Below, piece by piece: positions 8,593 through 38,622 of a stretch of 39,491 bases of DNA. Below the pieces are notes generated by a model that was not told the DNA's origin, made no database searches, and was given only the letters and a program-made list of their open reading frames with translations. The first letter of the stretch is position 1, and each line of letters begins with the position of its first letter. The DNA comes from Henriciella sp. (GTDB lineage Bacteria > Pseudomonadota > Alphaproteobacteria > Caulobacterales > Hyphomonadaceae): NCBI GenBank assembly GCA_013214545.1, contig JABSQB010000032.1:1-39491 (forward strand), in the 5' to 3' direction. A program made the translations under genes and the position numbers.

Positions 8593-8869
8593 CGCACCGC
8601 CCCCTCGCACTCAGAAAGAGCATCGAAGCGTAGGTCGCTGAAATGACAAGCATGTTACGTTTTTGCGATGTCTGGATGTCGATGGTGTAACCTGTCCAGG
8701 AATTGATCGACCGCCTAATCGACGGAGAGTACCGCCGTGTCGCGTCATTTTCGACGTTTGGTGCCGCTTTATACAAATTTCTGGATTGAGACTGTGGAAA
8801 AGCGGGAACCTTCATCGCGATGACATCTTGTTAGGTTAACCCCGTGGAAACAATTTGGGACGTCTCGAG
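8593..8869. promoter_or_regulatory. Divergent promoter region with two TGACA-N-TGTTA elements
   Basis: This 277-bp gap must hold promoters for the metallophosphoesterase (minus) and the phosphonate transport genes (plus). Two related imperfect inverted repeats occur: TGACAAGCATGTTA at 8643-8656, near the phosphoesterase, and TGACATCTTGTTA at 8821-8833, 37 bp before phnD. Spacers differ by one base. No standard Pho box (two 7-mers at 11-bp pitch) could be placed. Confidence 0.35.
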
Positions 8870-9844: not shown

Positions 9845-9855
9845 GATTGCATCAC

Positions 9856-10767: not shown

Positions 10768-10769
10768 CC

Positions 10770-16053: not shown

Positions 16054-16068
16054 CGAGTTCGGCCGATT

Positions 16069-17327: not shown

Positions 17328-18466
17328 GCAGCACGCCGTCCTTTCGACCAAACTTCTTTAATCACTGGCCAATGTCTAGGTTTGTAGCTGACACGGACAA
17401 AATCTGCGCGCTTACCTGGTTCCAGCGTTCCGCGATCATCCAGCATCGCCATTTTAGCTGGCTCCGCCGTGACAGTCGCGATCGCTTTTTCAAGTGGCCA
17501 AGAAAAAGGTGGCTCAGCCAGCATAAAGGCGGCACGGATCATCGAAAGAGGGACATAGTCAGAGCAGAGGGCATCCAATTGCCCTGCTTCAGCGACCTTG
17601 CGCGCCGACGCATTGTCGCCGTGTGACCGTCCTCGCACAAAGTTGGGGCTGCCCATCACCGTGACCATATTGTTTCGCTTCGCGGCTTCTGCGGCTTCAT
17701 AAGAGACCGGAAACTCAGCGATATGGCACCCTAAGCCAACAGCGGTTTCAATATGATCCTTCGTGGCATCATCATGGCTTGCTACGGGAATTTTATGATC
17801 GCGACCAAACTCCGCAATCATGCGCCGACGGCCATCGGCACCGTCCAAATCGCGCCATGACATGGATTCTTGTAAGCTGGCCTCGACCTCTTCGATGGAG
17901 CGGCCGCGTTTAACTTGCTTTTGCTTCCAAGCTTCCAGAGTTCCGGACTGGCGATTTCCGCCCGGCGTGTGATCCATGACGGAAAGCATTTTTAAGCGCT
18001 GCGTGCCAAGATAAGGCGTGACGAGGTCTTCAATATCAGGGTTAGTGACTTCGCAGCGCAGGTGTAGCAGATGGTCAATCCGAAGCGCACCTGCATCCTC
18101 CGCATTGTCCATGCCGCCCATCATCACGGTGAGCGCCTCACCGCGATCTAGACCGTTCTTGCGTCCGCTTAGAGAAAGACTATCGAACACCGTTGTGACG
18201 CCAGCCGTTGCCATTTGCCCATCATGTGCAACGGCGGCGCCAGCGGCGTCCCATTGCGCGCCGGGGCGCGGCATGAGGTGCTTCTCGAGATTGTCGGTGT
18301 GGATATCGATAAGACCTGGGATGATGAGATCACCCTCGGCATCCGTAGCGATGGCTGCGCTGCCATTTCCGATCGACGAAATTACGTCGCCGTCAAACGT
18401 CATGGCCCCTTCAACGATCCCATTAGGCGTCACAAAGCGCGCGTTTTCGATTGCTTTTATGGGCAT
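17324..18466 (-). CDS. phnM: C-P lyase pathway triphosphate diphosphatase PhnM (operon copy)
   Basis: This is a 380-residue amidohydrolase-superfamily enzyme that removes pyrophosphate from alpha-D-ribose 1-methylphosphonate 5-triphosphate. The metal site begins with IDIHTDNLEKH (His56). Other visible marks are TTVFDSLSLSG, LSVMDHTPGG, ASHDDAT and SDYVPLSM. The C-terminal amidohydrolase strand ends RGTLEPGKRADFVRV. The start is 2 bp after the phnL stop and the end overlaps DUF1045, so it is within a tight operon. A second phnM-like gene lies at 24114; the two share the motif blocks but differ elsewhere. This copy is next to phnGHIJKL and is the likely C-P lyase enzyme. Confidence 0.95.
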   Translation of the reverse strand: MPIKAIENARFVTPNGIVEGAMTFDGDVISSIGNGSAAIATDAEGDLIIPGLIDIHTDNLEKHLMPRPGAQWDAAGAAVAHDGQMATAGVTTVFDSLSLSGRKNGLDRGEALTVMMGGMDNAEDAGALRIDHLLHLRCEVTNPDIEDLVTPYLGTQRLKMLSVMDHTPGGNRQSGTLEAWKQKQVKRGRSIEEVEASLQESMSWRDLDGADGRRRMIAEFGRDHKIPVASHDDATKDHIETAVGLGCHIAEFPVSYEAAEAAKRNNMVTVMGSPNFVRGRSHGDNASARKVAEAGQLDALCSDYVPLSMIRAAFMLAEPPFSWPLEKAIATVTAEPAKMAMLDDRGTLEPGKRADFVRVSYKPRHWPVIKEVWSKGRRAA

Positions 18467-18468
18467 GA

Positions 18469-19179
18469 CTAAGCGACTTCTTTCGCAGCGAATTCTGAAA
18501 CTTCGAAGAAACTGGTGGCGACCGCTTCTCGCACGGCTTCATCATGGAAAATACCAATCAATGCCGCGCCATTGCTTAGTGCTCGATTGATCAAGTTAAT
18601 CACGCGTTGTCGATTGGCTGCGTCTAGAGAAGCCGTTGGTTCGTCGAGCAACATAACGGGGAAATCGAGAACGAAAGATCTTGCAATGTTGACCCGTTGT
18701 TGTTCGCCGCCCGAGAAGGTCGCAGGTGGGAGATCCCAATGCGCTTTTGGTAGTTGCAGCATGTCCAAAATAAACTTGGATCTGTCTTCGGCTTCTTTCG
18801 CGTCCACGCCATTGTCGAGCAATGGCTGCATCACCAAATCGAGGGTCGAGATGCGTGGAATAACTCGCAAGAACTGACTAACATAGCCAAGCGTGCGGCG
18901 TCGAATATCGAGCAGCTGGAAGGGCGGTGCGGACGTGATATCGACCATCTCTCCTTCATGAAAAACTCTCACGGCGCCTCCAGTGGGCAGGTAGTTGCCG
19001 TAAATGGATCGCATGAGGGTTGATTTGCCAACGCCAGATACACCGGCAAGGACGACGCATTCACCGCTCTTCACTGACAGGTGTAGGTTCTGAAAAACGG
19101 GTATTCTCGCCGCCCCTGCATTGTGCAACACAAAGTGCTTCTCGAGATTATCAATTTCAATAAATGTTTGGCCAGACAT
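18469..19179 (-). CDS. phnL: C-P lyase accessory ATP-binding protein PhnL
   Basis: This is a 236-residue ABC-type ATPase without membrane partner, part of the C-P lyase machinery and needed with PhnGHI for ribosyl-nucleotide formation. Walker A is GVSGVGKS (46-53), the Q-loop is in TLGYVSQFLRVIPRISTLDLVMQPL, the signature reads FSGGEQQRVNIARS, and Walker B is VMLLDEPTASLD. The LRVIPR segment and GIFHDEAVR ending are PhnL-like rather than transporter-like. It starts 24 bp after phnK. Its TAG stop is 2 bp before the phnM ATG. Length is close to the usual 226-240. Confidence 0.93.
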   Translation of the reverse strand: MSGQTFIEIDNLEKHFVLHNAGAARIPVFQNLHLSVKSGECVVLAGVSGVGKSTLMRSIYGNYLPTGGAVRVFHEGEMVDITSAPPFQLLDIRRRTLGYVSQFLRVIPRISTLDLVMQPLLDNGVDAKEAEDRSKFILDMLQLPKAHWDLPPATFSGGEQQRVNIARSFVLDFPVMLLDEPTASLDAANRQRVINLINRALSNGAALIGIFHDEAVREAVATSFFEVSEFAAKEVA

Positions 19180-19203
19180 GTCTGGTAGTCCCCTTTAAAA
19201 AGG

Positions 19204-20019
19204 CTAAATCTGCAGAACTGCAGAGACGAGAAGTTGCGTGTAGGCGTGTTGAGGATCGTCCAGCACCTGATCGGTCAAACCGGTTTCAACAACGTGGCCA
19301 TCTTTCATCACCATTAAGCGATCGGCGAGCAACCGAGCGACGGCGAGATCATGCGTGACGACGATAACGGCGAGTTGCGAGCGACGCACGAGGTGACGCA
19401 GCAAGTCGAGGAGGCGGGCTTGCACGGAGACATCCAAGCCCCCGGTTGGCTCATCCATGAAGACGAGCCGCGGGCTGTGGACCAAGTTACGCGCAATCTG
19501 AATGCGCTGCTGCATGCCGCCGGAAAAGTTACGAGGATTATCGTCGATCCGAGCAAGGTCGAGTTCGACTCGATCAAGCCATGTGATCGTGTCCTCGCGC
19601 ATACTTCCGTAATGGCGGTTGCCGAGATTCATTAGAGGCTCAGCGACATTGGCGCCTGCGGAGACTCGCATCCGCAATCCATCGCGGGGGTTTTGATGAA
19701 CGAAGCCAAGTTCTTCTCGTTGAACCCGACGGCGGTCTGCTTCCGAGAGATCGAATAGGTCGGTGAGACCATGCTTCTTAGTGGCAAACTCCACATTTCC
19801 CGCGGTCGGGCTCAGGCGACCGGAAATGCAATTCAATAGGGTTGATTTGCCAGATCCGGACTCGCCAACAATGCCCAAAACTTCGCCTGGAAAGAGTTCG
19901 AAGCTAACGTCTTCACATCCAGTAATGAAGCCATAGCGCTTCGTGACATTTTGGGCTCGAAGAATCGGAGCGTCCGGTGCGAGATTGAGCGGACGTTCTT
20001 CTAGTGCGATCGCGCTCAT
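19204..20019 (-). CDS. phnK: C-P lyase accessory ATP-binding protein PhnK
   Basis: This is a 271-residue ABC-type ATPase that binds the C-P lyase core. Walker A is GESGSGKS (52-59), followed by the PhnK-typical GFVHQNPRDGLRMRVSAGANVAEPLM, the signature FSGGMQQRIQIARN, and Walker B LVFMDEPTGGLD. The N-terminal extension of about 18 residues is longer than in E. coli. The start overlaps the phnJ stop by 4 bp (ATGA). It is the fifth gene of the phnG-M operon. The call is secure from motifs and order. Confidence 0.94.
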   Translation of the reverse strand: MSAIALEERPLNLAPDAPILRAQNVTKRYGFITGCEDVSFELFPGEVLGIVGESGSGKSTLLNCISGRLSPTAGNVEFATKKHGLTDLFDLSEADRRRVQREELGFVHQNPRDGLRMRVSAGANVAEPLMNLGNRHYGSMREDTITWLDRVELDLARIDDNPRNFSGGMQQRIQIARNLVHSPRLVFMDEPTGGLDVSVQARLLDLLRHLVRRSQLAVIVVTHDLAVARLLADRLMVMKDGHVVETGLTDQVLDDPQHAYTQLLVSAVLQI

Positions 20020-20963
20020 GCCATCACCTCTTGGTTTTTGGAGACATCTTCAGCGATCTCGGTTAGCTCGTGGCCTGCATGAGGCCCTCGATGGCCCTGC
20101 GCGCGACGATCTGCGCAGTAATCACTATCAGAGCAGACAAACATGCGATTGTTGTCATCGTCGAGAACAACCTCATCCATGTATGTGTGCTTCGCACCGC
20201 AAAGACCGCAAACTTCATCCCAGGTTTGAACCTCGAATGGGTAATCCTCAAATCCGAGGCTTTCCACTTTGGTGAATGGCGGAACAGCATAAATGCGTTT
20301 CTCGCGCCCAGCACCGAAGAGGTGAAGGGCAGGGCTGTTGTGTAGCTTCGGATTGTCGAACTTTGGGATGGGCGAAGGCGACATCACATAGCGATCATCA
20401 ACCATCACCGGATATCCCGCCGTTGCCGCAATGCGGCCGAATGTCGAAATATTTTCGTACAGGCGAACATATTGCAGGCCATATTCTTCATAGGCGTGCA
20501 TGGCGCGCGTTTCGGTCTCACGCGCCTCAAGGTTTCTCAACGGCTCTGGTTGAGGGACCTGGAAAACCATGATTTGGCCTTCGACGAGCGGCTTTTCTGG
20601 GATCCTGTGACGGCTCTGAATTATCGTCGCGTCGCCGGTATGTTCGGTGGTTGCCACTCCACCCACTTTCGCAAAAAAGTGACGGATCGATACGGCGTTT
20701 GTCGTGTCGTCCGCGCCCTGGTCGATACACTTGAAAGTGTCATTCGGGCCAATCAGACTTGCGGTGATTTGGATGCCGCCGGTGCCCCAACCATAAGGCA
20801 CTGGCATCTCGCGAGATCCGAAGGGCACTTGATATCCGGGGACGGCGATCGCTTTCAAGATGGCGCGACGGATCATTCGCTTGGTCTGTTCGTCGAGATA
20901 AGCGAAATTATAGTCTGCTAAGCCCGGTCCGGCATTTGCAGACATGGTTTGGTGCTCGGTCAT
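20016..20963 (-). CDS. phnJ: Alpha-D-ribose 1-methylphosphonate 5-phosphate C-P lyase PhnJ
   Basis: This is a 315-residue radical-SAM enzyme that breaks the C-P bond. The four-cysteine cluster region is C252-x2-C255-x21-C277-x5-C283, the same spacing as C241, C244, C266 and C272 of E. coli, with a constant offset of 11. Gly43, in PGYQVPFG, matches the glycyl-radical Gly32. Most of the N-terminal half (DYNFAYLDEQTKRM onward) is almost identical to E. coli. The ATG at 20963 overlaps the phnI stop (ATGA) and is preferred over an upstream start at 20999. The C-terminus carries an extra 25-residue tail. No key residue is missing, so the enzyme should be active. Confidence 0.97.
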   Translation of the reverse strand: MTEHQTMSANAGPGLADYNFAYLDEQTKRMIRRAILKAIAVPGYQVPFGSREMPVPYGWGTGGIQITASLIGPNDTFKCIDQGADDTTNAVSIRHFFAKVGGVATTEHTGDATIIQSRHRIPEKPLVEGQIMVFQVPQPEPLRNLEARETETRAMHAYEEYGLQYVRLYENISTFGRIAATAGYPVMVDDRYVMSPSPIPKFDNPKLHNSPALHLFGAGREKRIYAVPPFTKVESLGFEDYPFEVQTWDEVCGLCGAKHTYMDEVVLDDDNNRMFVCSDSDYCADRRAQGHRGPHAGHELTEIAEDVSKNQEVMA

Positions 20964-22075
20964 TCTGCAGCTTCCTTGGCAGCTTGACGTTCCGCCCATT
21001 CCTCACGCTGCTTGCGCACAAACTGGAGGCTGGCTTGGAAGTCGACATAGTGGGGGAGTTTAAGGTGCTGGACGAAGCCAGAGGCTTCGACATTGTCGCA
21101 ATGGTAAAGCACGAACTCTTCATCATGCGCGGCGAATTCTGGCTTCTCACCTTCGGCCGGACGGTTTTTCAGAGCGCGATCGACAATCGCCATCGACATG
21201 GTCTTGCGCTCATTGTGTCCAAACGTCAGTCCATATCCGCGGGCATAGCGGGGTGGTTCTTCGCCAATCGTTCTCGAGTTCGAGATCATTTGGCACTCAG
21301 TGACCATGATCTGACCAATCGTAATTGGAAAGCCGAGCTCTTCAGGAATGAATTCAACGTCGACTTCTCCCAGACGGATCTCACCGCAAAGTGGGTGGGT
21401 GCCGCCCCATCCGCGCTGCGTGGAGTAAGCGAGTGACAGCAAGAACCCTTCGTCCCCACGCGCGAGCGATTGCAGACGCTGATCGCGATCTGCGGGGAAA
21501 CTCATGGGCTCGCGCGTGAGGTCGAAAGGAACCGTTTCGTTTTCATTTGCGGCCGCGGTTTCGTGTTCAAGGAGGTCTTCGTGCGCAAACACGTCTTCAA
21601 TATTCGGTACTTGCTCCGGCAGCAGCTCGTCTGCTTGTTCGGTGCGCTCGAGCGGTGTTTCACCGTTTGCCATTAGTTGGAAATCGAGCAGACGGTGCGT
21701 GTAATCAAATGTCGGCCCAAGAACCTGGCCGCCAGGAATATCCTTGAAGGCTGCAGAAACGCGACGCTCAACGCGCATTTGCCGCGTGTTAATCGCTTCA
21801 CTGACGCCGAACCGCGCAAGCGTTGTGCGATAGGCGCGAAGCAAGAAGATCGCTTCTCCAATGTCTCCGCGTGACTGCTTGACCGCAAGCGCGGCAAGAT
21901 CGCGATCGTAGCATGAGCCTTCGGCCATGACGCGATCGACAGCCAGAGAAAGCTGTTCGCGGACTTGATCCGCTTCGATTTCAGGAATGGATTGATCTCC
22001 ACGCCGATCCTCGGCGAGTAGATTGTGGGCGTTGGTGATGGCGCGTTCGCCACCTTTTACTGCAACATAGGCCAT
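20960..22075 (-). CDS. phnI: C-P lyase core component PhnI
   Basis: This is a 371-residue subunit of the PhnGHIJ core; PhnI is the nucleosidase that, with PhnGHL, joins the phosphonate to the ribose of ATP. It starts MAYVAVKGGERAITNAHNLL, as PhnI does, and the tail has LPHYVDFQASLQFVRKQREEW. Middle blocks include FDYTHRLLDFQLMANGETPLERTE and LAYSTQRGWGGTHPLCGEIR. The ATG at 22075 has AGGGGA upstream; the longer frame to 22201 is not supported. The gap from the phnH stop is 11 bp. The long acidic insert around residues 170-215 is somewhat larger than in E. coli. Confidence 0.95.
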   Translation of the reverse strand: MAYVAVKGGERAITNAHNLLAEDRRGDQSIPEIEADQVREQLSLAVDRVMAEGSCYDRDLAALAVKQSRGDIGEAIFLLRAYRTTLARFGVSEAINTRQMRVERRVSAAFKDIPGGQVLGPTFDYTHRLLDFQLMANGETPLERTEQADELLPEQVPNIEDVFAHEDLLEHETAAANENETVPFDLTREPMSFPADRDQRLQSLARGDEGFLLSLAYSTQRGWGGTHPLCGEIRLGEVDVEFIPEELGFPITIGQIMVTECQMISNSRTIGEEPPRYARGYGLTFGHNERKTMSMAIVDRALKNRPAEGEKPEFAAHDEEFVLYHCDNVEASGFVQHLKLPHYVDFQASLQFVRKQREEWAERQAAKEAAE

Positions 22076-22086
22076 CTGGTCGTCCC

Positions 22087-22692
22087 CTAGATGTGCGTGG
22101 TTCGAGTGGTGCGCGGTAAGCCGATGACTTGGTTTTCCGCTGTGAGGTAGCAATCTACTCCGAGTTGGAAGTCGGCGACGTTTTCGGTCCGCTCGGTCCA
22201 AAAACTCGCCGGGATACCCATCGGGCTAACACCCACGGATGTTTCAATTCCCGGCCCTTCAAATGTGACTTCTGGGCCCCCGGTTAGAGCCGAAAGCTGA
22301 ATAATCAAACTTGTCGAAGTGTCGGGATACTTGGCGTCACCAGGGTGAAACTCATCCAAAGCTGGCCAGTCATCGCCTTCTTGGAGGAAGGCAAAACTTG
22401 CTTCTCTGGGCACCGTTGTGATCGGCGCACTGCAATGAAAGCGGAGCCAAGATTTGAGTGCATCCGTGTTCAGCGATTCGCTGAGATAGATGGGTGTATC
22501 AAAGTCCATGAGTGTCAGCGCTAATCCTGCAGAGGCGAGATTGAGCGGCGCTGGCGCAGAGGCAATATCTAACGCTTGCACGGTGCCCGGGCGAGATAGC
22601 GCATCGAGCGTTTTGCGAAAGCATGCTTGTGCATCCAAAACGGGGTCTGAAAACCCCGGTTGCACGTTTGATAGATCGAGAAGCTCGGTCAT
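22087..22692 (-). CDS. phnH: C-P lyase core component PhnH
   Basis: This is a 201-residue subunit of the C-P lyase core. It follows the PhnH pattern: PGFSDPVLDAQACFRKTLDALSRPG at the N-terminus, ALTLMDFDTPIYLS in the middle, and GPGI near residue 155, then the PMGIPASFW region. PhnH forms dimers in the PhnGHIJ complex and has no catalytic motif of its own. It overlaps phnG by 4 bp (ATGA) and is followed by phnI after 11 bp. Length (194 in E. coli) agrees. Confidence 0.92.
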   Translation of the reverse strand: MTELLDLSNVQPGFSDPVLDAQACFRKTLDALSRPGTVQALDIASAPAPLNLASAGLALTLMDFDTPIYLSESLNTDALKSWLRFHCSAPITTVPREASFAFLQEGDDWPALDEFHPGDAKYPDTSTSLIIQLSALTGGPEVTFEGPGIETSVGVSPMGIPASFWTERTENVADFQLGVDCYLTAENQVIGLPRTTRTTHI

Positions 22693-23186
22693 TTTTTGTC
22701 TTCCCGCGTTCTAACCATGGTGAAGAAATTCACTCGGGTCGCTGCAACTTTGGCCGCGCGGTCCGCTTCGTTCTTCTCATTGTGTTGTTTGAGTGGCGCC
22801 ACGATCGCGTCATACGCTTGTTGGTGGTGCGATTCCGACTGGAGCAGCGCATCCGCTTTGGCTGCAATCAATGCATGCTCAAGGTTCCGTCCAGCGATAT
22901 AAGAAACGCCGGTTTCACCATCGGGCAGGCGAACGGCGCATCGCGTAACAGTCATCTCTCCAAGATTGAACTGTTCGCCCGCGCTTCCGGCTCGGCCTCG
23001 AACCATCACTAAGCCGCGCTCGGGCTTGCGGATGATTTCGCAGGGAATCTCGTTCAATTCAGACGCTTGCGCCCACAACGACTCCACATGGTCGGGTGTG
23101 CTTGTCGCTAGAACTTTCATCCAAGCTTGGCGCTCAGCATGAGCCCCTTTTGGAAATGTGTCAGTTTCAACAAATTTTTGATTCAT
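22689..23186 (-). CDS. phnG: C-P lyase core component PhnG
   Basis: This is a 165-residue first gene of the C-P lyase operon. It has the PhnG blocks RQAWMKVLATSTPDHV, EIIRKPERGLVMVRGRAGS, FNLGEMTVTRCAVRL and GVSYIAGRNLEHA. It belongs to the PhnGHIJ core that binds ATP and phosphonate. The ATG at 23186 follows an AT-rich intergenic region that also serves phnF. The 3' end overlaps phnH by 4 bp. The length is about 15 residues above the E. coli protein. Confidence 0.93.
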   Translation of the reverse strand: MNQKFVETDTFPKGAHAERQAWMKVLATSTPDHVESLWAQASELNEIPCEIIRKPERGLVMVRGRAGSAGEQFNLGEMTVTRCAVRLPDGETGVSYIAGRNLEHALIAAKADALLQSESHHQQAYDAIVAPLKQHNEKNEADRAAKVAATRVNFFTMVRTREDKK

Positions 23187-23305: not shown

Positions 23306-23361
23306 TTGTCTAAATGAAGTAAAAGGCGAAATAATAACGCTTTTTATAGGGGGTCTATATG
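23306..23361 (+). promoter_or_regulatory. Candidate phnF promoter and PhnF operator (TATAG-N5-CTATA)
   Basis: TTGTCT (23306-23311) and AATAAT (23330-23335) are an 18-bp-spaced sigma-70-like pair. Just downstream, TATAG (23345-23349) and CTATA (23355-23359) form a perfect 5-N5-5 inverted repeat that covers the GGGGG ribosome site and touches the ATG at 23359. The reverse complement contains TATAGACC, the core of the PhnF site known in Mycobacterium smegmatis. A repressor bound here would block transcription start and ribosome access. Direct evidence is absent. Confidence 0.5.
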
Positions 23362-24087
23362 CCGAATAAGATTTGGGAACACGTTTCCAGCCAGATAGAA
23401 GACAGTATTCGAAAGTATGAATACGCTCCTGGCGACAAACTACCCACTGAAGCCGAGTTCTCTCGGAAGTTTATGGTCAACCGCCATACTTTACGACGAG
23501 CCTTGTCTCACTTGCAGGAGATTGGACTTGTGGAAAGCACGCAAGGCCGGGGTAGCTATGTGCGTCGTCCTGCGATTCGATACACGATCGGAAAACGAAC
23601 CCGGTTTTCAGATCAAATCAAAAATCAATCCATCGTCGCAACAACGAAAACACGTAAAGTGGTCGTGCGGACTGCAACGCGCGACGTCGCTAAAGCGCTT
23701 GAAATTCCATTGGGTCAAAAAGTCATCGCGGTAAGCCGGATTGGTTATGCCGGTGATGTCCCAATCTCTATGGCGACTCATCATTTTGACTTTCACCGCT
23801 TTCCAACTTTCCAGAAGGTCTATCCTGAACACCAAAGCATTACACAGACGCTCGTGAACTGCGGAGTCCTGGATTTTACCCGAAAATGGACAGTGGTTCG
23901 GTCGCGCTTGCCGGGGCCGGAAGAGTGCGAGCATTTGAATATGCCAAAACACGTGCCGCTTATCCTAACGAAGTCCTTGAACATCGATCCATTGAGCAAG
24001 CCTCTGGAATACGGAGAAGCGGTGTTCGCGTCTGACCGAATGGAACTTGATATCGCTTCTGCTGAAGCCCCTCCCGCCGATTACTGA
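23359..24087 (+). CDS. phnF: GntR/HutC-family transcriptional regulator PhnF
   Basis: This is a 242-residue repressor. The N-terminal winged helix (about 5-75) has the GntR pattern YAPGDKLPTEAEFSRKFMVNRHTLRRALSHLQEIGLVES, and QGRGSYV closes the wing. The rest is a UTRA effector-binding domain of HutC type, with RIGYAGDVPISMATHHF and CEHLNMPKHVPLILTKSLN. PhnF proteins control phosphonate or phosphate uptake genes. It is divergent from phnG across a 172-bp AT-rich region and begins a second operon. A 15-bp palindrome at its own start suggests autorepression. Confidence 0.92.
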   Translation: MPNKIWEHVSSQIEDSIRKYEYAPGDKLPTEAEFSRKFMVNRHTLRRALSHLQEIGLVESTQGRGSYVRRPAIRYTIGKRTRFSDQIKNQSIVATTKTRKVVVRTATRDVAKALEIPLGQKVIAVSRIGYAGDVPISMATHHFDFHRFPTFQKVYPEHQSITQTLVNCGVLDFTRKWTVVRSRLPGPEECEHLNMPKHVPLILTKSLNIDPLSKPLEYGEAVFASDRMELDIASAEAPPADY

Positions 24088-24113
24088 CTAAACTGATACA
24101 AATAGGATCTCCG

Positions 24114-25244
24114 ATGGAAACGCGTATTTCCAATGCCAGAATTGTCACACCAAATGAGGTTGTCGAAAGCTCCCTCGCCGTTTCGAACGGCTGCATACAA
24201 GCGTTTGAACCGAATGGGTCCGGTATCGATTTTGATGGCGATTATCTCATCCCCGGCTTGATTGATATTCACACCGATAATCTGGAAAAGCACTTCTATC
24301 CACGACCCGGTGTCGACTGGGATGCTCAGTCCGCGGCGATCATCCATGATGGGCAATGCGTATCAGTCGGGATCACCACGGTTTTTGATAGCCTCTCCAT
24401 TGGATCGTGGTCAGACAATGAAGCACGGCACTTAGATAATATGCTGAAGCTTGTCGAAGGATTGGAGACTGCAGATCAAGAGCAGCAACTGCGGGGAAAT
24501 CACTTGCTGCATTGGCGGTGTGAAACCTCTAGTCCCGTTCTCGAAGACCTGATGGACAAGCTCGTGCCTCATCGGTTGACGCACTTGCTCTCTGTCATGG
24601 ATCATACGCCGGGCCAGCGACAGTATCCGGACATCGAGAAACACAAGGCACGCTGGAAAGCACATCTTGGTCTGACGGATGAAGAGGCCGAAGCCCGTGT
24701 TGCCAACGCCCAAGAGAAACAAGCCAAATATACGCCGATGAATCGCGAAGTGGTCGATAAGGTCGCGAAAAAGCGGAATCTGGCTTTAGCGAGCCATGAC
24801 GATCAGCTTCCCGAGCATATTCACGATGCGCTCGCCATTGACGCGACCATAGCTGAATTCCCGACAACGATCGAAGCGGCCCGGCTTGCCAAAGAAAACA
24901 ATATGACCGTGGTGATGGGCGCCCCCAATCTGATGCGGGGCGGCTCTTATTCCGGCAACGCCTCCGCGGCCGAGGTCGCTGATGCCGGCCTATTGGATGC
25001 ATTCGCGTCGGACTATGTTCCGCGCTCGATGATCGAGGCCGCCTTTCGTTTGACACAGCCTCCGTTTGACTGGTCGCTTCCGAAAGCCATTGCGACGGTC
25101 ACGGCAAACCCCGCTGACAGTGTTGGTTTGTCTGACAGGGGCCGGATCGAAGAAGGCAAAAGAGCAGATTTTATTCGCGTGAAAGTCAAAGATGGACGGC
25201 CTTTGATCCGAGGCGTGTGGGTTGCAGGGGAGCGTGTGGGCTAG
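24114..25244 (+). CDS. phnM: Second PhnM-like amidohydrolase
   Basis: This is a 376-residue PhnM-family amidohydrolase. It retains IDIHTDNLEKH (His53), TTVFDSLSIGS, LSVMDHTPGQ, ASHDDQ and SDYVPRSM, so the metal and substrate sites look intact. The middle third differs from the operon copy, for example a helical insert rich in Glu/Lys near residues 180-215. It starts 26 bp after phnF with AGGA upstream, so it is probably cotranscribed with phnF and the EEP, ABC and HAD genes. It may hydrolyse a different ribose-phosphonate triphosphate or back up the first copy. Two phnM copies in one locus are unusual. Confidence 0.9.
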   Translation: METRISNARIVTPNEVVESSLAVSNGCIQAFEPNGSGIDFDGDYLIPGLIDIHTDNLEKHFYPRPGVDWDAQSAAIIHDGQCVSVGITTVFDSLSIGSWSDNEARHLDNMLKLVEGLETADQEQQLRGNHLLHWRCETSSPVLEDLMDKLVPHRLTHLLSVMDHTPGQRQYPDIEKHKARWKAHLGLTDEEAEARVANAQEKQAKYTPMNREVVDKVAKKRNLALASHDDQLPEHIHDALAIDATIAEFPTTIEAARLAKENNMTVVMGAPNLMRGGSYSGNASAAEVADAGLLDAFASDYVPRSMIEAAFRLTQPPFDWSLPKAIATVTANPADSVGLSDRGRIEEGKRADFIRVKVKDGRPLIRGVWVAGERVG

Positions 25245-31014: not shown

Positions 31015-31103
31015 ACCGGAATCAGATCGCGCGCGCTGCATAAGTTTTGCACCTGCTTGGATTCTCTGAACTGGTTTAGACAAGTCCCCATTTTTGGCGA
31101 TCA

Positions 31104-31123
31104 ATCTGACTTCATCTGACATC
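31104..31123 (+). repeat. Tandem 10-bp repeat upstream of a phosphoesterase gene
   Basis: ATCTGACTTC (31104-31113) is followed directly by ATCTGACATC (31114-31123), nine of ten bases the same, 57 bp before the phosphoesterase ATG. The CTGACAT within it differs by one base from the Pho-box half-site CTGTCAT, but the pitch is 10 rather than 11. It may be an operator. Confidence 0.4.
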
Positions 31124-31180
31124 GCGGCGTCACGGACGTTCATTAATCGTCCTAGCAATTCATGCTGGAGACTGATCGTG

Positions 31181-32623
31181 ATGCGTTTCGTCCTATTTCT
31201 ATCGCTACTTATCTTTGCTTTTACCAGTCCCGCACAAGCGCATCCGGGCGATCAACACGGTGAAGCAATGCCACCATGGCAGAAGGCTTCCAGCTGGCCC
31301 GATAGGATTGTTGTCACGCTCGCTGATCAGCCCCAAAACCGGTTCTCGGTAACCTGGCGAACAGACGCGACCGTCTCCGAGACAATTGCACAAATTGCGG
31401 TCGCCACCGAAGACGCTCGTTTTGACCTCGCCGCAGAGACCATGTCAGCGCGGACAGAACCATTGAATCCAGCGCTGCCGGAGCTGCAAGGAACCGTCTA
31501 TCAAGAGCCCATGAATGCCGGTATTGAGGCGGCGCACTTTCATTCGGTAACCTTCACCGATCTTGAGCCCGATACGGTCTATGCATATCGCGTTCGAGGC
31601 GCGCGCGGCGCGTGGAGTGAGTGGTTCCAGACCCGAACAGCTGCCGAAACCGGACCCGTAAAATTCATCTATGTTGGCGACGCCCAAAACGGTGTCATGT
31701 CGCATTGGTCACGGTTAATCCGCGCCAGTTATGCCGCGGTTCCAGACGCCGATTTCATTCTTCATGCCGGTGACTTAGTTAATCGCGCCTCCCGCGACTT
31801 TGAATGGGCAGAGTGGTTTAAAGCGGTCAGCCATATTCACGGGATGATCCCGGCGTTGCCAGTCGCTGGAAACCACGAATATGCACGCCTAGGGCTCTCT
31901 CCCAATCAGACCGACCGTATCTTGTCGATCTTCTGGCGCCCGCAATTTACGCTACCAATTGAAGGGGAACTACCCGCCGATCTACACGAAGTGGTGTACG
32001 ACATGCGCTACTCGCAAGACTTGCACATTTTCATCTTGTCGACTCAGAATAGCGACATCCAAACCCAAGCCGATTGGCTAAACAAACAGCTCGCGGCCAG
32101 TGACGCGACTTGGAAAGTCGTTTCTATGCATCATCCGATTTTTTCGTCCGGTCGCGGCCGCGACAGCGCCGACCGAAGAGCTGTCCTGCTGCCCGTGCTT
32201 GAGCGACACGCCGTCGATCTCGTTTTGCAAGGACATGATCATACTTACGCACGCGGGGCCATCGGCCAAACCCCTGAGCGCTTAGGTTGGCGCGATGCCG
32301 GCGGACAAGTTCAGACCATGTTCGTGAACTCTGTGAGCGGGCCCAAGCAGTATGAATTCCAGGAAACGGGCTGGGATATGTATGAGAAAGACGGTGTCGA
32401 GCTCGCGCGCCGCGCTGAAAATACGCCCTTCTATCAGATCATCACGGTTGATGGCGATACGCTGCACTATGAGGCCCGTACGGTCCTGGATCAGCTTTAC
32501 GATGATTTCGAAATGCGCAAATCGGGTGGTGTGAAGCAGATTACGCGCGGCGCGACGTCGACCATGGAAGAGCGATCTTACCAGAATACGGGCGACTATC
32601 CCGGCGTGAATGACCTGAAGTAA
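31181..32623 (+). CDS. Secreted purple-acid-phosphatase-like metallophosphoesterase
   Basis: This is a 480-residue exported phosphatase. A signal peptide (about 1-20, ending SPAQAHPG) is followed by a fibronectin-like purple-acid-phosphatase N-domain (about 35-160) and a calcineurin-like domain. All metal motifs are canonical: YVGDAQ, HAGDLVN, GNHEY, MHHP and GHDHTYAR. It should cleave phosphomonoesters in the periplasm or outside the cell. The ATG at 31181 is chosen over 31094 because CTGGAG is 10 bp upstream and it starts the signal peptide. It resembles the phosphoesterase at 6685, lacking the LamG domain and keeping the standard GNHE motif. It precedes a TonB receptor gene on the same strand. 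Confidence 0.9.
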   Translation: MRFVLFLSLLIFAFTSPAQAHPGDQHGEAMPPWQKASSWPDRIVVTLADQPQNRFSVTWRTDATVSETIAQIAVATEDARFDLAAETMSARTEPLNPALPELQGTVYQEPMNAGIEAAHFHSVTFTDLEPDTVYAYRVRGARGAWSEWFQTRTAAETGPVKFIYVGDAQNGVMSHWSRLIRASYAAVPDADFILHAGDLVNRASRDFEWAEWFKAVSHIHGMIPALPVAGNHEYARLGLSPNQTDRILSIFWRPQFTLPIEGELPADLHEVVYDMRYSQDLHIFILSTQNSDIQTQADWLNKQLAASDATWKVVSMHHPIFSSGRGRDSADRRAVLLPVLERHAVDLVLQGHDHTYARGAIGQTPERLGWRDAGGQVQTMFVNSVSGPKQYEFQETGWDMYEKDGVELARRAENTPFYQIITVDGDTLHYEARTVLDQLYDDFEMRKSGGVKQITRGATSTMEERSYQNTGDYPGVNDLK

Positions 32624-32732
32624 TTGTTTCACGATTTTATGACGGTCGTGCTCGCACGAAGTTCTATTTCTGACGAGAGCTTAAAGTAGGGGATTTTTCT
32701 AATCCTTGCCCACAAAGTGGAAGGAAGTAAGT

Positions 32733-34751
32733 TTGAAGCTACGCGTCCTTCTCGCGGCGGTCACCGTCTTTTCCACGCCGGCGTTAGGTCAGGGGGCGGC
32801 TGATCAAACGCTCGTATTTGAGCCGGACTTCTTTCAGCGATTTGTGCCTCAAACGGCACTGGATATGGTGGAGCGCGTCCCAGGGTTCAGCATAGACCAG
32901 GGTGAGAATCGCCGCGGTCTGGCCGGGGCTGCGGGCAACATCCTGATCGATGGCCGCGTCCCGGTTATTAAGGGGCAGGGCATAAGAGGCATATTAAGGC
33001 GTATTCCGGCTTCGACCGTGGAACGCCTCGAACTTATTCGCGGGTCGGGAACAAGCGCATCCAACTCGCAGTCGGTTATTCTCAATATCATACGTCGACA
33101 AGGAGGTGGCTCGGGGGTCTGGCGCGCCACTTTTGATTATACAGATGACGATCGATTAAGCCCGAACGCAGATGTGACCTGGGCGGGTCAATCCGGAAGC
33201 ATTGAATACCGCGTATCTGGGGACTTCAGGAAGTGGCACGACCCAAGATCGGGCACGGAAGATACGTTTGATGGGCTGGATATCTTGGAAGAGCGTTTGA
33301 CTGAAGAGAGTGTAAGAGATGACGAGCGTATCGGTTTGTCAGGAGAAATAAAGACACCGATAGGGCTTGGAGAGCTGCTCTTGGTAGGAGCCTTCGAAAC
33401 CCGTGAAGGTCGCACATCTGAGATGTCTCAGGTTCTCAATGCGCAAAACACGATCGATGGACTGGAACTCGTTTTATCCGATCAAGAAAATGAGAGCGGC
33501 GAATTCTCCGCGAATTATTCCAGACAACTCGGCGAGTGGAGGACGGAACTGTCCGCGCTCTTCTTGGCTGAACGTTCCGACACGCGACAAGAGAATACAG
33601 AGTTCGATTCGGGCAACATATTAGATGAGCGCGCAATCGAGGCTGAAACATCTGATGATTTTGAGGGCATCCTGCGAGCGGTTGCCTCAAGGAGTGTCGC
33701 AAACGGTGCGTGGTCTTTCGAGGGAGAGGTCGCTTTTAACAAGCTCGATAAAAGTCTCCGATTGACCGAAGACGACGGCTCTGGACCCATTCTGATCGAT
33801 TTGCCGGGCGCAAACACGCTCGTTGAAGAAACACGCAGCGAGTTTGGTGTTACTCGATCTTGGGATGTGACCTCTTTGTGGAATGTGGAAACCGGTCTCG
33901 CCTACGAGCATTCTCGGTTGAGCAATGAAGGCGATTTCTCTGATGAAAGAGACTTGAGCTATTGGAAGCCCTCCATCCAGATTTCGCGCAAATTCGGCGA
34001 TGATGATCAGGTGCGTTTTCGAGTGTTCCGCGATGTCGACCAGTTAGACTTTGAAGATTTCGCAGCCGGAGTTGAACTAGATAATGAAAACATAAATGCA
34101 GGGAATGCTGATCTTCTCCCGGAGACATCCTGGCGCGCGGAGATCGCCGCAGATTGGCGCTTCGGAGATGGAGCACTCGAACTTTCTGTCTTTGGATGGG
34201 ACATTGCGGAGGCTCAAGACTTTGCTCTCTTCATTGCGGATGGAGAGCAATTTGATACGCGCGGAAACATTGGTGATGGAACCATTTACGGATTGAGCGC
34301 CAGGCTTGAGACTCCGCTAAGTTTCGTTCCCGGAGGAACAATTGTGATTGGCGGTCTTTGGCAGGACAGCGAAGTCGAAGATCCGCTTACGGGCGAAACA
34401 AGAGCTCAATCTGAAACGACCAAGGCGACGTACGAATTTGAGTTTCGACAAGACTTCGAGACGATGGCATTAGCATGGGGAATAGAATTTGAGCGAGAAG
34501 AGCAAGCCCCCGAATTTCGATTTGACCGTGTGACAGCCGCTCAAGACCGAGATCATATGCGAATTTGGGTCGAAACCACGGCCTTCGGAAACTTCAAAGT
34601 CAGGCTGGCTTTGGATGATTTTACAGGATCACTCCAAACCCGCGATCGGCAACGCTTTGACCCCAATAGATTGGGGGCGTTCGATCAATTCGAGCGCCGC
34701 GAACGGGAGCAAGGGCCGAGCTTAAGTCTCCGATTGCAAGGGGTGTTCTGA
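32733..34751 (+). CDS. TonB-dependent outer-membrane receptor
   Basis: This is a 672-residue receptor, shorter than the one at 3392. A signal peptide (about 1-20, ending TPALGQG) leads into a plug domain with ALDMVERVPGFSID, GNILIDGRVP, IPASTVERLELIRGSG and SNSQSVILNIIRR. The barrel ends with SLSLRLQGVF, the aromatic C-terminus for outer-membrane insertion. The start is TTG at 32733, with GGAAGGAAG at 32719-32727; an upstream TTG at 32706 would give a poor signal peptide. It sits between two exported phosphatases, suggesting uptake of an organophosphorus ligand, but the substrate is not known. Confidence 0.88.
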   Translation: MKLRVLLAAVTVFSTPALGQGAADQTLVFEPDFFQRFVPQTALDMVERVPGFSIDQGENRRGLAGAAGNILIDGRVPVIKGQGIRGILRRIPASTVERLELIRGSGTSASNSQSVILNIIRRQGGGSGVWRATFDYTDDDRLSPNADVTWAGQSGSIEYRVSGDFRKWHDPRSGTEDTFDGLDILEERLTEESVRDDERIGLSGEIKTPIGLGELLLVGAFETREGRTSEMSQVLNAQNTIDGLELVLSDQENESGEFSANYSRQLGEWRTELSALFLAERSDTRQENTEFDSGNILDERAIEAETSDDFEGILRAVASRSVANGAWSFEGEVAFNKLDKSLRLTEDDGSGPILIDLPGANTLVEETRSEFGVTRSWDVTSLWNVETGLAYEHSRLSNEGDFSDERDLSYWKPSIQISRKFGDDDQVRFRVFRDVDQLDFEDFAAGVELDNENINAGNADLLPETSWRAEIAADWRFGDGALELSVFGWDIAEAQDFALFIADGEQFDTRGNIGDGTIYGLSARLETPLSFVPGGTIVIGGLWQDSEVEDPLTGETRAQSETTKATYEFEFRQDFETMALAWGIEFEREEQAPEFRFDRVTAAQDRDHMRIWVETTAFGNFKVRLALDDFTGSLQTRDRQRFDPNRLGAFDQFERREREQGPSLSLRLQGVF

Positions 34752-34862: not shown

Positions 34863-36242
34863 ATGAGCTCATTACCCAGTATCTCAAAACGTACCTTGTT
34901 AAAGGGCATCGCTGCGGGCGGATTTCTAGCACCCGAACTCCAAGCGCTCGCACAGCGGGGGATCTTTCCAAAGCTTTTGCTGGGCCCAATGCTAGGGCCG
35001 CCGACACCGACATCCGTAAGTTTGTGGGCAATGATCAATGGCGTTTATGACGTGGTTATTGAGTATGCAGACAATGACGTCTTCCGAAATCCGAAGCAGA
35101 CCGCACCGATCCGAGCCCTTGAGGAAAACCTCTATATTGTTCGCCCGACGATTGGAGGATTACGTCCAGCAACAACCTACTGGTACCGCTTTATCATCAA
35201 TGGCCGCGGACAGGAGGGAGGGCATTCTCTTCCCATGGGCCAGTTCCGCACTGCGCCCGCCAGCGGCAGCAAATCAGATTTCGTCGTCGGATATGGATCG
35301 TGTGCCAATTTTAGCTACGATTCAGAGCAACCGGTTTGGCGGGCGGTGTCGGCCCATATGCCGGATCTGTTTTTCAATCTCGGAGACAATATCTATTGCG
35401 ACTCATTTGAGCCGTTCGTTCTGGACTTTGAGTATCAGCGCCAACGGGGCGTCGCCACATATCAGCACGTGGGTCGAAATATCCCACAATTAGCGATTTG
35501 GGATGATCACGATTTTGGTTTGAACGATCATGACCGCACTAATCCGATCAAGGACAACGCTCTGGAGGCTTTCAAACGGTATTGGATGAACCCTGCTTAC
35601 GGTTTGCCCGATACACCGGGCGTGTTCTTCTCTTATCGCTACAGCTCGGTCGATTTTATCTTCACTGATGGGCGTTATTATCGCGATCCGAATGCGCAAG
35701 AGGATTCACCTGAAAAGACGATGCTCGGAAAGCAGCAGCTTGAATGGCTCAAAGACACGCTGAAAGCGTCGGAGGGTGTGTTCAAGATTTTGGCTTGCGG
35801 CAGCGGTTGGTCAAAAAACAAAGGCCCGGGTGGCGATGCGTGGTCTTCATTCCTGCATGAGCGAGATGGCTTGTTTGACTTCATCCGGGATGAAGAGATT
35901 GAGGGCGTAATCTTGATTTCAGGAGACACTCATATTGGTGAATTTAACTGCATTCCTTGGTCCGACCGCGGCGGCTACGACCTATTCGACTTAGTGAGTT
36001 CGCCGATCTCTAGCCGCCAGTCGCATAGTTGGTTGAAGCGTGACCCTGAAATTCGCCTTCGAACGCCGCCTTACACAATCGGGCCGAATGTCGGCTTCAT
36101 GAATTTCGACTTTGAGGGCGAGCCCTCTATGACGTGGTGGCTCTCAAAACCAGATGGGAAACCCACATGGGCACCTGCAACCTTTAAGATTAGTCAGTTG
36201 AGAATTGGCGTGTCTTCTTTTCGCGAATTTTTGCAGGACTGA
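34863..36242 (+). CDS. phoD: PhoD-like alkaline phosphatase
   Basis: This is a 459-residue PhoD-family metallophosphatase acting in the periplasm. Residues 1-35 are a Tat-type signal with SKRTLLKG (Lys9-Arg10) in place of twin arginine. A PhoD N-terminal beta-domain (about 40-130) is followed by catalytic motifs GSCAN, NLGDNIYCDSF, WDDHDFGLND and SGDTHIGEF. The ATG at 34863 follows GGGGAGG and is preferred over an in-frame start at 34791. It is followed after 3 bp by a porin gene. PhoD enzymes hydrolyse monoesters and diesters with Ca and Fe and need folded export, which fits Tat. The KR signal is unusual but known to work in some cases. Confidence 0.87.
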   Translation: MSSLPSISKRTLLKGIAAGGFLAPELQALAQRGIFPKLLLGPMLGPPTPTSVSLWAMINGVYDVVIEYADNDVFRNPKQTAPIRALEENLYIVRPTIGGLRPATTYWYRFIINGRGQEGGHSLPMGQFRTAPASGSKSDFVVGYGSCANFSYDSEQPVWRAVSAHMPDLFFNLGDNIYCDSFEPFVLDFEYQRQRGVATYQHVGRNIPQLAIWDDHDFGLNDHDRTNPIKDNALEAFKRYWMNPAYGLPDTPGVFFSYRYSSVDFIFTDGRYYRDPNAQEDSPEKTMLGKQQLEWLKDTLKASEGVFKILACGSGWSKNKGPGGDAWSSFLHERDGLFDFIRDEEIEGVILISGDTHIGEFNCIPWSDRGGYDLFDLVSSPISSRQSHSWLKRDPEIRLRTPPYTIGPNVGFMNFDFEGEPSMTWWLSKPDGKPTWAPATFKISQLRIGVSSFREFLQD

Positions 36243-36245
36243 CTT

Positions 36246-37673
36246 TTGGGGCAGAAACAACGGATATTGAGCTTAGCGCTCATCGCTACTTTTATATGGG
36301 CGTCAGTCGCGGCGGGCGCACAACCTGTATTGAAATCGCACCCTCAACCCTGGCGCGCAGAGCGTGCATGGGACTTGCCGGATTGGTTCACACTCAAAGG
36401 CGAGGCACGCGTTCGATATGAGAGTCTCGAAGGCCAATTCCGGTCCAATCGTGATGGAAGTGACCAGCTTCTGCTCTTCAGAAGCCTGCTGCTAGCGGAA
36501 GCTGATTTGGGTAACGTCTCGCTCGGGGTAGAGCTTCAAGATAGTCGCACCTATTTGGGAGATGAGGGTACGCCGCTCGGGTCGAGCATCGCCAACCCTC
36601 TGGATTTATTGCAAGCCTATGTTCGGTTCGATGACATTCCCGGTCCTCTGGGCCCAGGTTCTAAGGGGAGTTTAAAACTGGGGCGACAAACCGTTTCAGT
36701 TGGTTCGAAAAGGCAAATTGAGCGCGTCGATTTCGCGAATGTCATCAAGTCATATACCGGGCTGAATTATCAATCGACGAATTCGCGTGGAGATGAATTT
36801 CACGCTATCTATGTCGTGCCCACTGCTCGCTTTCCGAACACGCGACCCGCCCTCGATGACAATGAGTTGTCAGGCGATGAAGAGCAGTGGAATAGGCATA
36901 TTTTCGGGTTGCATTATAGGCGCGCCGATATCTTGCCCACAATTGCTCCAGATCTCTGGGGTGAGGTGTTTTTATACGGGCTTGAAGAGCACGATAGCGA
37001 GACGTTCCCGACCCCCGACCGCTCATATCTGGTCCCTGGTTTCAGGCTCTACCGAAAACCTCAGAAGAGTCGATGGGACGTGGATATAGAAGGGGCTCTG
37101 CGCCATGGGACACGCTATGCGACCAGTGCGTCATCGGACACGGAGAGCCTCGCGGTTGATGCATCAATGTTGCATGCGGAGCTCGGCTATACATTCGACG
37201 CGCCATGGCAGCCCCGGATCGCGTTTGAATATTATTGGGCGAGTGGTGACTCAGATCCGACAGACGCTAAATTCGACCAACACGAGCGACTGTTTGGATC
37301 TCGTCGATCCGATCTGAACAATACCTCGATCCATGGACCCCTTACCCCCGCCAATCTTAACGCACCAGGGTTTCGCGTCGAAGTTAAACCAAATGATCGA
37401 TGGGATGGTCGGTTTTACTATCACGCGGCGCATTTGGCTTCAGAAACGGATTCTTGGGTAATCGCTCGCAGGCGAGATCCATCTGGCCAATCTGGAGATT
37501 TCATCGGGCATGTTCTCGATGCGCGGGCACGTTATTGGGTTGTGCCGGATAGTCTGCTACTTGAACTCGGTGCTTCAGCGCTGGTCTATGGCGACTTCGC
37601 CAAAAACGTACCGAACGGTCCTGATGGTGATGGAACGGCATTCGGATATGCACAGCTGACTTTGTCGTTCTAA
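36246..37673 (+). CDS. Alginate-export-type outer-membrane porin
   Basis: This is a 475-residue beta-barrel protein of the alginate_exp family. It has a signal peptide (about 1-26, ending VAAGAQP), then strands such as FTLKGEARVRYESLEG, LKLGRQTVSVGSKRQIERVDFANV and GRFYYHAAHL, and ends in AYGYAQLTLSF-like sequence (FGYAQLTLSF) with terminal Phe. It starts with TTG at 36246, 3 bp after the phoD stop, so the two are cotranscribed. Despite the name, members of this family serve as ligand channels for many compounds. In this setting it could pass phosphate or phosphonate esters. The substrate is inferred. Confidence 0.83.
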   Translation: MGQKQRILSLALIATFIWASVAAGAQPVLKSHPQPWRAERAWDLPDWFTLKGEARVRYESLEGQFRSNRDGSDQLLLFRSLLLAEADLGNVSLGVELQDSRTYLGDEGTPLGSSIANPLDLLQAYVRFDDIPGPLGPGSKGSLKLGRQTVSVGSKRQIERVDFANVIKSYTGLNYQSTNSRGDEFHAIYVVPTARFPNTRPALDDNELSGDEEQWNRHIFGLHYRRADILPTIAPDLWGEVFLYGLEEHDSETFPTPDRSYLVPGFRLYRKPQKSRWDVDIEGALRHGTRYATSASSDTESLAVDASMLHAELGYTFDAPWQPRIAFEYYWASGDSDPTDAKFDQHERLFGSRRSDLNNTSIHGPLTPANLNAPGFRVEVKPNDRWDGRFYYHAAHLASETDSWVIARRRDPSGQSGDFIGHVLDARARYWVVPDSLLLELGASALVYGDFAKNVPNGPDGDGTAFGYAQLTLSF

Positions 37674-37887
37674 GAGGCTTCGTGCCGCTTGGACGAAAAG
37701 TGAATTTGTCGCGTTCGCAATGTTGAAAATTCATATGCGCGTCTTGTTAGCGGCGCATCCTTAAAGAACAGGGAATCGAAACGCGACAATGGTGGAGCTT
37801 TGTATCGCTCCCGTGACCTAAGGTTCGTTGATTGGACCATCCTATAGAACCGAGTTGCCAGCGCAACGCATAAGCGGAGGAAATGAA

Positions 37888-38622
37888 GTGAAGGACCAGA
37901 TCACAAAAGCCGAAGTCACACGCCGATCTTTCATGGCAGGGACCACTGTCCTCGGTGGGGCGATCTTAACCAGCCAGAGCGCGAGCGCGGACCCGATGAC
38001 GACCGAAGAGACCTGGTCCAAACCCACAAATGTTATCGAACAGATTGTGGAAGTCTTTGGGGGCTTTGATTTCGATCAAGAAAGCGCCGAAGCTGTGCGC
38101 AAGAATGGCACTGACAACGCTCGCTTGGCGTATCATGCAAAGGCAGCTTCCAGACGAAGCCACGCGATCCAATGCGCTCTACAAGCCGAGCAAGCCGGCG
38201 CGGATGAGCCGTTCATCGCAGCTGCCCTCGTGCACGATATTGGTCATAGTTTCGCGGCGCCAGCGCCGATTGGCCTCGAGGATGAGTATGATGATTTGCA
38301 CGGAAAGGTCGCCGCGTATTGGCTCAGAAATGCTTTTGTTGAAGAGGTTTCAGAGCCAGTCCTGTTGCATGTGCCTGGCAAGCGTTACTTGGTCTCGACA
38401 CGCCCGGAGTACATGGGAATTCTATCGGCGGGATCGATTGACTCTTTGCGTCGACAAGGCGGCCCTATGACAGACGATGAGATCCAGGAGTTCGAAGCGC
38501 GTCCTCACTCCGATTGGGGTGTCGAAGTTCGGATTTGGGACGATAAAGCTAAAGTTCGGGGCTTTGAGCTGCCAAATATTGAGCGATTTATTCCGTATCT
38601 CGAAGCGTCGCTGAAGGTTTAG
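37888..38622 (+). CDS. Tat-exported PhnZ-like HD-domain diiron oxygenase
   Basis: This is a 244-residue protein of the PhnZ/TmpB/MIOX-type mixed-valent diiron HD family that cleaves C-P bonds oxidatively. Against PhnZ, the ligands fall at a constant offset of 58, then 57: His92, His116-Asp117, His120, His138, His161 and Asp218, with phosphonate-contacting Lys165, Ser183 and Arg215 also kept (PhnZ numbering from memory). Tyr82 matches PhnZ Tyr24, but PhnZ Glu27 is Lys85 here. A twin-arginine signal TRRSFMAG (11-18) with cleavage after SASA lies ahead, so the enzyme is probably periplasmic. It starts with GTG at 37888 after GGAGG (37876-37880); a TTG at 37828 is less likely. Family firm, substrate unknown. 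Confidence 0.88.
   Translation: MKDQITKAEVTRRSFMAGTTVLGGAILTSQSASADPMTTEETWSKPTNVIEQIVEVFGGFDFDQESAEAVRKNGTDNARLAYHAKAASRRSHAIQCALQAEQAGADEPFIAAALVHDIGHSFAAPAPIGLEDEYDDLHGKVAAYWLRNAFVEEVSEPVLLHVPGKRYLVSTRPEYMGILSAGSIDSLRRQGGPMTDDEIQEFEARPHSDWGVEVRIWDDKAKVRGFELPNIERFIPYLEASLKV

Follow-up and report, generated by a model that had tools for sequence, protein, structure and literature searches.

Can an oxygenase of the PhnZ type act outside the cytoplasm, and on which phosphonate? The question is raised by a gene located at positions 37888–38622 (+ strand) of a 39,491-nt stretch of Henriciella sp. DNA (assembly GCA_013214545.1, contig JABSQB010000032.1), the whole of which was analysed and is called the window below. 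Its 244-aa product combines PhnZ-like iron ligands with a signal of the twin-arginine translocation (Tat) type and a Lys residue in the substrate loop. The reading favoured here, and considered moderately probable, is that the protein is an exported PhnZ/TmpB-type mixed-valent diiron oxygenase that works in the periplasm, where it splits the carbon–phosphorus (C-P) bond of a 1-hydroxyphosphonate that carries no cationic head.

A PhnZ-type protein with an altered substrate loop

The gene starts with GTG, preceded at a distance of 7 nt by a Shine-Dalgarno-like GGAGG (37876..37880, +) seen in the sequence. The in-frame Met codons M16 and M37, either of which would drop the twin Arg, had no Shine-Dalgarno-like sequence before them. 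The only Pfam match was a marginal one to the HD domain (21.2 bits, cut-off 22), and the best NCBIfam model was TIGR03276 for phosphonate degradation HD-domain oxygenases (1.1e-48, 165.2 bits). In phmmer comparisons with the PDB, TmpB (6npa, 5.7e-26) was the best sequence match, followed by PhnZ (4mlm, 8.3e-23). The predicted fold was also of the PhnZ kind, with TmpB 6NPA as the tied best fold match. Up to an E-value of 0.001, the genome that encodes the protein gave no second match to it. The mature PhnZ/TmpB-type HD domain corresponds to residues 35–244 (37990..38619, +).

The residues of the active site were paired using the printed phmmer alignments to chains 4mlm and 6npa. The diiron ligand set was complete: H92 (38161..38163), H116–D117 (38233..38238), H138 (38299..38301), H161 (38368..38370) and D218 (38539..38541), all on the + strand, aligned on H34, H58–D59, H80, H104 and D161 of PhnZ, as the original prediction of a PhnZ-type enzyme with complete ligands had proposed. 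The pairings behind that prediction stood, and its single constant offset did not: the numbering differs by 58 through H138/H80 and by 57 from H161/H104 onward (K165/K108, S183/S126, R215/R158, D218/D161), because PhnZ carries one additional residue between H138/H80 and H161/H104. Five further residues, Y82 (38131..38133, +), H120, K165, S183 and R215, are the counterparts of PhnZ Y24, H62, K108, S126 and R158, of which H62, K108, S126 and R158 belong to the active site; the predicted retention of Tyr82, Lys165, Ser183 and Arg215 was thereby confirmed in both alignments.

The loop itself deviates. Lys85 (38140..38142, +) aligns on PhnZ Glu27, exactly seven residues ahead of the first His ligand, so that its predicted position was upheld against both the PhnZ and the TmpB chain. 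The YxxE substrate loop is thus YxxK, and it is YxxR in a relative encoded by Parvularcula. According to one review, the loop comprises Y24/E27 in PhnZ and Y30/E33 in TmpB, and on substrate binding its Glu reaches hydrogen-bond distance of the amino group as the Tyr departs from the iron (PMC8177086). A second review describes contacts of PhnZ Glu27 to the amino group and of His62 to the hydroxyl; it also assigns roles to the diiron ligands, His62 and Arg158, and states that altered substrates or residues lower the activity (PMC7916636). Since Glu27 touches the substrate amino group, a substrate without the usual amino-hydroxy head group, as had been predicted, is a fair inference for an enzyme with Lys85, and a basic residue in place of the amine-binding Glu points to a substrate lacking a cationic head.

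To judge how unusual this residue is, homologous frames with a phmmer E-value of at most 1e-8 were compared, one per locus at 118 loci (six loci repeating the window or the Parvularcula copy were left out). Seven residues before the first His ligand, Glu was present in 96 of the 118, Ser in 9, Ala in 5, Thr and Tyr in 2 each, and Asp, Gln, Pro and Arg in one each. The sole Arg belonged to the Parvularcula copy and a basic residue occurred in none of the other 117. With 21 of the 118 homologues having neither Glu nor a basic residue, the loss of Glu alone is not unique; the basic residue is. The window protein and the Parvularcula copy have further rare residues in common, e.g., Gly164 beside Lys165, where 116 of the 117 others have Ala, and the pocket therefore seems changed as a whole, as the comparison of the two sequences suggests.

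Another group of PhnZ homologues stood out as a subclade of its own (18 of 19 rows, support 98/94), in which the equivalent of Glu27, within a YGL-type loop, is Ser, Ala, Thr or Tyr. It includes L041, L052, L068, L071, L079, L109, L112 and others; no signal was seen in its members, which likely represent another substrate class.

Predicted export signal

The N-terminus carries RR at positions 12–13 (TRRSFM; codons 37921..37926, +, found as a motif), followed by a 21-residue uncharged stretch, SFMAGTTVLGGAILTSQSASA. The predicted Tat signal peptide spans residues 1–34 (37888..37989, +), with cleavage after SASA at an A-x-A site placed by eye. The assessment was based on our own motif rule (RR, then an uncharged stretch) and on conservation. 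TatC was present in the genome (234.9 bits), which indicates a Tat translocase. The Parvularcula relative, whose N-terminus reads SRRDLVIGSAAISSGLALTQTARA, has the same layout, with RR, the hydrophobic stretch and A-x-A at equal spacing. Only 8 of the 34 columns of the signal region are identical between the two proteins, in comparison with 66% identity over residues 35–244, and the retention of these features in a poorly conserved N-terminus is therefore more than chance. Such low identity around kept signal features would be usual for a signal under selection. The Tat-type signal that had been predicted (RR at 12–13, SASA) was thus recovered, and export of the protein is well supported at the level of sequence.

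A loose version of the Tat rule, applied to the last 110 residues ahead of the first ligand, was also positive for 4 of the 117 other homologues (L035, L044, L056 and L061). These were rejected by eye as Tat substrates, because RR lay upstream of the likely start or the stretch was weakly hydrophobic or broken by charges, and no A-x-A was present. In L035, L059, L060, L067 and L116, a hydrophobic 15-mer exceeded the threshold; it lay within the first domain helix, 31–33 residues ahead of the ligand. Among the homologues examined, a convincing export signal was found, by the motif rule and eye, only in the window protein and the Parvularcula copy, and within this scope the other family members fitted the assumed cytoplasmic location.

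Relatives and phylogeny

The Parvularcula homologue (L020, contig CALFRH010000528.1 of a metagenome-assembled genome, MAG) is full-length and 60% identical to the window protein. The two grouped as one branch in a 121-row tree, with a support of 100/100 and a stem length of 1.63 changes per column. They are best read as a rare, deep, exported-looking branch of PhnZ oxygenases.

A third member was searched for in genomes of the order (299, then 398), the family of the MAG (62), the class (385), the own family of the window genome (105) and the phylum (398). The sets overlap and, save for the two families, were drawn from larger groups; for the class, phylum and 398-genome order sets, 6 or 7 first-look candidates per genome were scored. 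Matches at E < 1e-90 came only from the window genome and the Parvularcula MAG (order, class, phylum and family sets), and the next best reached 3.1e-40 (class set). No other genome of the same genus in the own-family set matched at E up to 1e-20. A two-peptide pattern scan of genome contigs returned three relatives, namely the Parvularcula MAG and two Glu-type proteins without a visible signal.

Relatives were found in 25 plasmid records, every one below 60% identity. Seven of these were inspected, and Glu occupied the loop position in six. In the remaining one, from Aquicella lusitana (L143), no YxxE loop was recognisable; its PhnZ-like gene is annotated as overlapping an MFS gene. Viral contigs contained no relative, and the sole match among phage records was OQ658365.1. 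This Pseudomonas phage record is 61,975 bases long and has, close to its end (61100–61576), a PhnZ-like stretch with 39.5% identity, which has no annotated gene and may be host DNA.

Proposed function and alternative explanations

From the ligands, the signal, the Lys/Arg residue, the genomic setting and the predicted fold we infer export, iron, O2 chemistry and the kind of substrate. The protein would fold and take up its iron pair in the cytoplasm, and Tat would move it, folded, to the periplasm. O2-dependent C-P cleavage of a 1-hydroxyphosphonate would then give phosphate and a carboxylate, the latter being formate in the case of hydroxymethylphosphonate. A substrate without a cationic head could be neutral, or it could bear a carboxylate, an ester group or a second phosphonate. 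The cell would take up the phosphate set free in this way along with that from exported phosphatases encoded in the surrounding island, and intact phosphonates would enter via PhnCDE for the cytoplasmic C-P lyase. As no hydroxylase gene was found beside it among the 34 window reading frames scanned and one would not expect 2-oxoglutarate beyond the cytoplasm, the enzyme would depend on hydroxyphosphonates that are already formed. The first candidate substrate is for this reason hydroxymethylphosphonate, whose occurrence in marine dissolved organic matter has been reported (PMC6581173).

Several observations weigh against such a function. The bit scores stayed below the curated cut-offs, both for TIGR03276 (214.6 bits required) and for the models of TmpB (NF049941, 117.1 bits) and PhnZ1 (NF052439, 112.7 bits), each with a curated cut-off of 300 bits. 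Only two members of the branch were found, one of them from a MAG of 92% completeness and 6% contamination; in the tree, the bootstrap had not converged and the MAG sequence was unusual in its amino-acid composition. Lys85 could sit outside the pocket. No PhyH or TauD 2-oxoglutarate hydroxylase was found among the 34 window open reading frames (ORFs) scanned, and the 5 PhyH and 6 TauD matches of the genome all fell short of the NCBIfam cut-offs for phosphonate hydroxylases; TmpA was the one model of this kind to match, at 26.7 of 400 bits. The window showed no enrichment in Pho boxes either, with 3 matches to a Pho-box consensus against 2.67 expected.

In NCBIfam, the PhyH and TauD proteins of the genome were taurine-dioxygenase-like (below cut-off) or gave weak matches only; no PhnY-type model matched them, the inclusion of such a model in the library being unchecked. 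The absence of a hydroxylase partner is not strictly disqualifying for PhnZ/TmpB-type enzymes, since none is annotated in the 6.5 kb around a PhnZ-like gene of Nostoc either. With the same consensus, the Parvularcula cluster (L018) had 3 Pho-box matches against 1.36 expected, a count equalled in 32 of 200 shuffles. One of them, with 2 mismatches, lies 48 bases upstream of the Parvularcula PhnD gene (L018, 5221–5238), the total count being within chance. A promoter scan found none, and a terminator-like site at 38640 was at chance level.

Among the alternatives, an exported enzyme that, in the manner of PhnZ or the Gimesia enzyme, still cleaves (R)-2-amino-1-hydroxyethylphosphonate or hydroxymethylphosphonate, with Lys85 merely tuning the loop, appears unlikely. 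It would agree with the retention of the remaining compared residues and with a certain substrate tolerance of PhnZ, the Gimesia PhnZ accepting two substrates according to a review (PMC10574752); it has to account for a charge reversal at the amine contact, with Lys or Arg in both copies and in none of the other 117 homologues, in a family where Glu is the rule (96 of 118). Somewhat less likely still is a periplasmic HD phosphohydrolase, i.e., a phosphatase or phosphodiesterase that has departed from C-P oxygenation, as the long stem branch, the lost loop Glu and the nearby genes for purple-acid-phosphatase-like, PhoD-like and endo/exonuclease-phosphatase proteins, some exported-looking, might suggest.

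That the protein is not exported at all, its N-terminus being non-functional as a signal or the translation starting at an inner Met, is improbable. An ordinary cytoplasmic stand-alone PhnZ-like protein would resemble those encoded in C-P lyase clusters of Nostoc and Anderseniella (the genes of the latter named by eye), beside which no hydroxylase was seen in the stretches inspected; this is opposed by the Shine-Dalgarno-like sequence ahead of GTG, with none ahead of Met37, and by the relative, whose divergent N-terminus still has RR, the hydrophobic stretch and A-x-A. A decaying, inactive copy on a mobile island is very improbable: the integrase/resolvase genes and relaxase fragment at the contig ends and the lack of a match at E up to 1e-20 in the other genomes of the genus in the own-family set would fit it, and the ORF is nevertheless intact, with all ligands and 60% identity to a second intact copy bearing the same special features. 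An exported oxygenase acting on a non-cationic hydroxyphosphonate remains the preferred reading.

Genomic setting

The window contains 56 ORFs of at least 120 aa, of which 34 gene-like ones were scanned, the rest being overlapping or antisense frames excluded by eye. It is a phosphorus-scavenging island. The order starts with a TonB receptor and a phosphoesterase fused to a laminin-G-like (LamG) domain, with a signal-like N-terminus (6685–8610), in which the additional domain perhaps binds a polymer. A PhnD-like binding protein, an ORF without a Pfam match and two PhnE follow (8855..12538, +). The ORF without a match (9847–10767) has a 31% identical counterpart at the matching place in the Parvularcula cluster and is perhaps a second binding protein. 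Beyond PfkB and EamA genes, PhnC, a hexapeptide-repeat protein and PhnN are encoded (14549..16623, +), succeeded on the opposite strand by the C-P lyase genes for a DUF1045 protein, PhnM, L, a K-like ABC protein, J, I, H and G (16611..23186, -), the name PhnK resting on the place of the gene and its ABC domain. The PhnF regulator and a second PhnM come next (23359..25244, +). The cluster thus has two different PhnM genes, at 17324–18466 and 24114–25244, the second adjoining PhnF.

Downstream are an exo/endonuclease-phosphatase, two ABC proteins with membrane domains, HAD and GST genes, and a purple-acid-phosphatase-like phosphoesterase (31094..32623, +) whose N-terminus, judged by eye, resembles a signal; a phosphoesterase of this kind encoded in the Parvularcula cluster is 65% identical to it. 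A TonB-dependent receptor (32706..34751, +), a PhoD-like phosphatase (34863..36242, +; PF09423 1.2e-26, PF16655 1.4e-11) and an outer-membrane porin-like protein of the Alginate_exp family (36246..37673, +; PF13372 9.2e-41) precede the PhnZ-like gene. The PhoD-like protein has a KR-type Tat-like N-terminus, its internal ATG start and signal being set by eye. Integrase core and resolvase genes occupy the left end of the contig (1–2823) and a TrwC relaxase fragment the right end (38978–39490), so that the island looks mobile or plasmid-borne, and it is probably mobile.

The Parvularcula gene is located inside a corresponding C-P lyase/PhnCDE cluster, with a HAD gene on one side and EamA-PhnC on the other. 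The neighbours common to both clusters, from the TonB receptor to PhnJ, are 31–80% identical and their order is largely kept; PhnI, cut by the end of the Parvularcula contig, is 89% identical over 46 aa. As the place within the cluster differs between the window and the MAG, the gene is linked to the island as a whole and not to a particular operon.

Comparison with known systems and significance

PhnZ of the uncultured bacterium HF130_AEPn_1 (PDB 4MLM, 4MLN, 4N71) has the HD fold, the six diiron ligands and the equivalents of Tyr24, His62, Lys108, Ser126 and Arg158 in common with the window protein, but it has Glu27, whereas the latter has Lys85 and a Tat signal, with no hydroxylase found in the window; PhnZ works in tandem with the hydroxylase PhnY (PMC8177086). 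TmpB of Leisingera caerulea (6NPA), the best PDB match in sequence and tied best in fold, keeps the loop Glu (E33; PMC8177086), whereas the window protein gave 117.1 of 300 bits in the TmpB model. Gimesia maris PhnZ1, the hydroxymethylphosphonate dioxygenase of NF052439, belongs to the same family and accepts a substrate without an amino group, but is paired with its own hydroxylase (PMC10574752); the window protein gave 112.7 of 300 bits. The PhnZ-like genes of the Nostoc plasmid (L137, annotated as phosphonate degradation HD-domain oxygenase) and Anderseniella (L021) also stand in C-P lyase clusters with no hydroxylase seen beside them, and differ in having Glu in the loop and no visible signal. 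PhoD is exported by Tat to free phosphate, and PhoX and PhoD, with folds unrelated to the PhnZ type, hydrolyse esters and not C-P bonds. PhoX is likewise exported by Tat (PMC3840354).

Phosphonates are described as being imported before cleavage, by PhnCDE (PMC10574752) or by PtxABC in Prochlorococcus (PMC6581173). In the literature searched, which covered few subscription papers, no report of an exported PhnZ was found by title or abstract opening. It is tentatively proposed, at somewhat less than even confidence, that the window protein is the first exported mixed-valent diiron oxygenase, of a Yxx(K/R) subfamily, and that it oxidatively cleaves, in the periplasm, the C-P bond of neutral or anionic 1-hydroxyphosphonates that lack an amino group, without import or a hydroxylase partner. 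Its substrates might come from dissolved organic matter, as hydroxymethylphosphonate or phosphonate esters.

If this is true, the exported oxygenase would give the cell phosphate from phosphonates that its transporters reject, free phosphate would be released into shared water, and the known substrates of mixed-valent diiron oxygenases would be broadened. The Glu-to-Lys/Arg switch makes substrate choice in the PhnZ family directly testable by point exchange.
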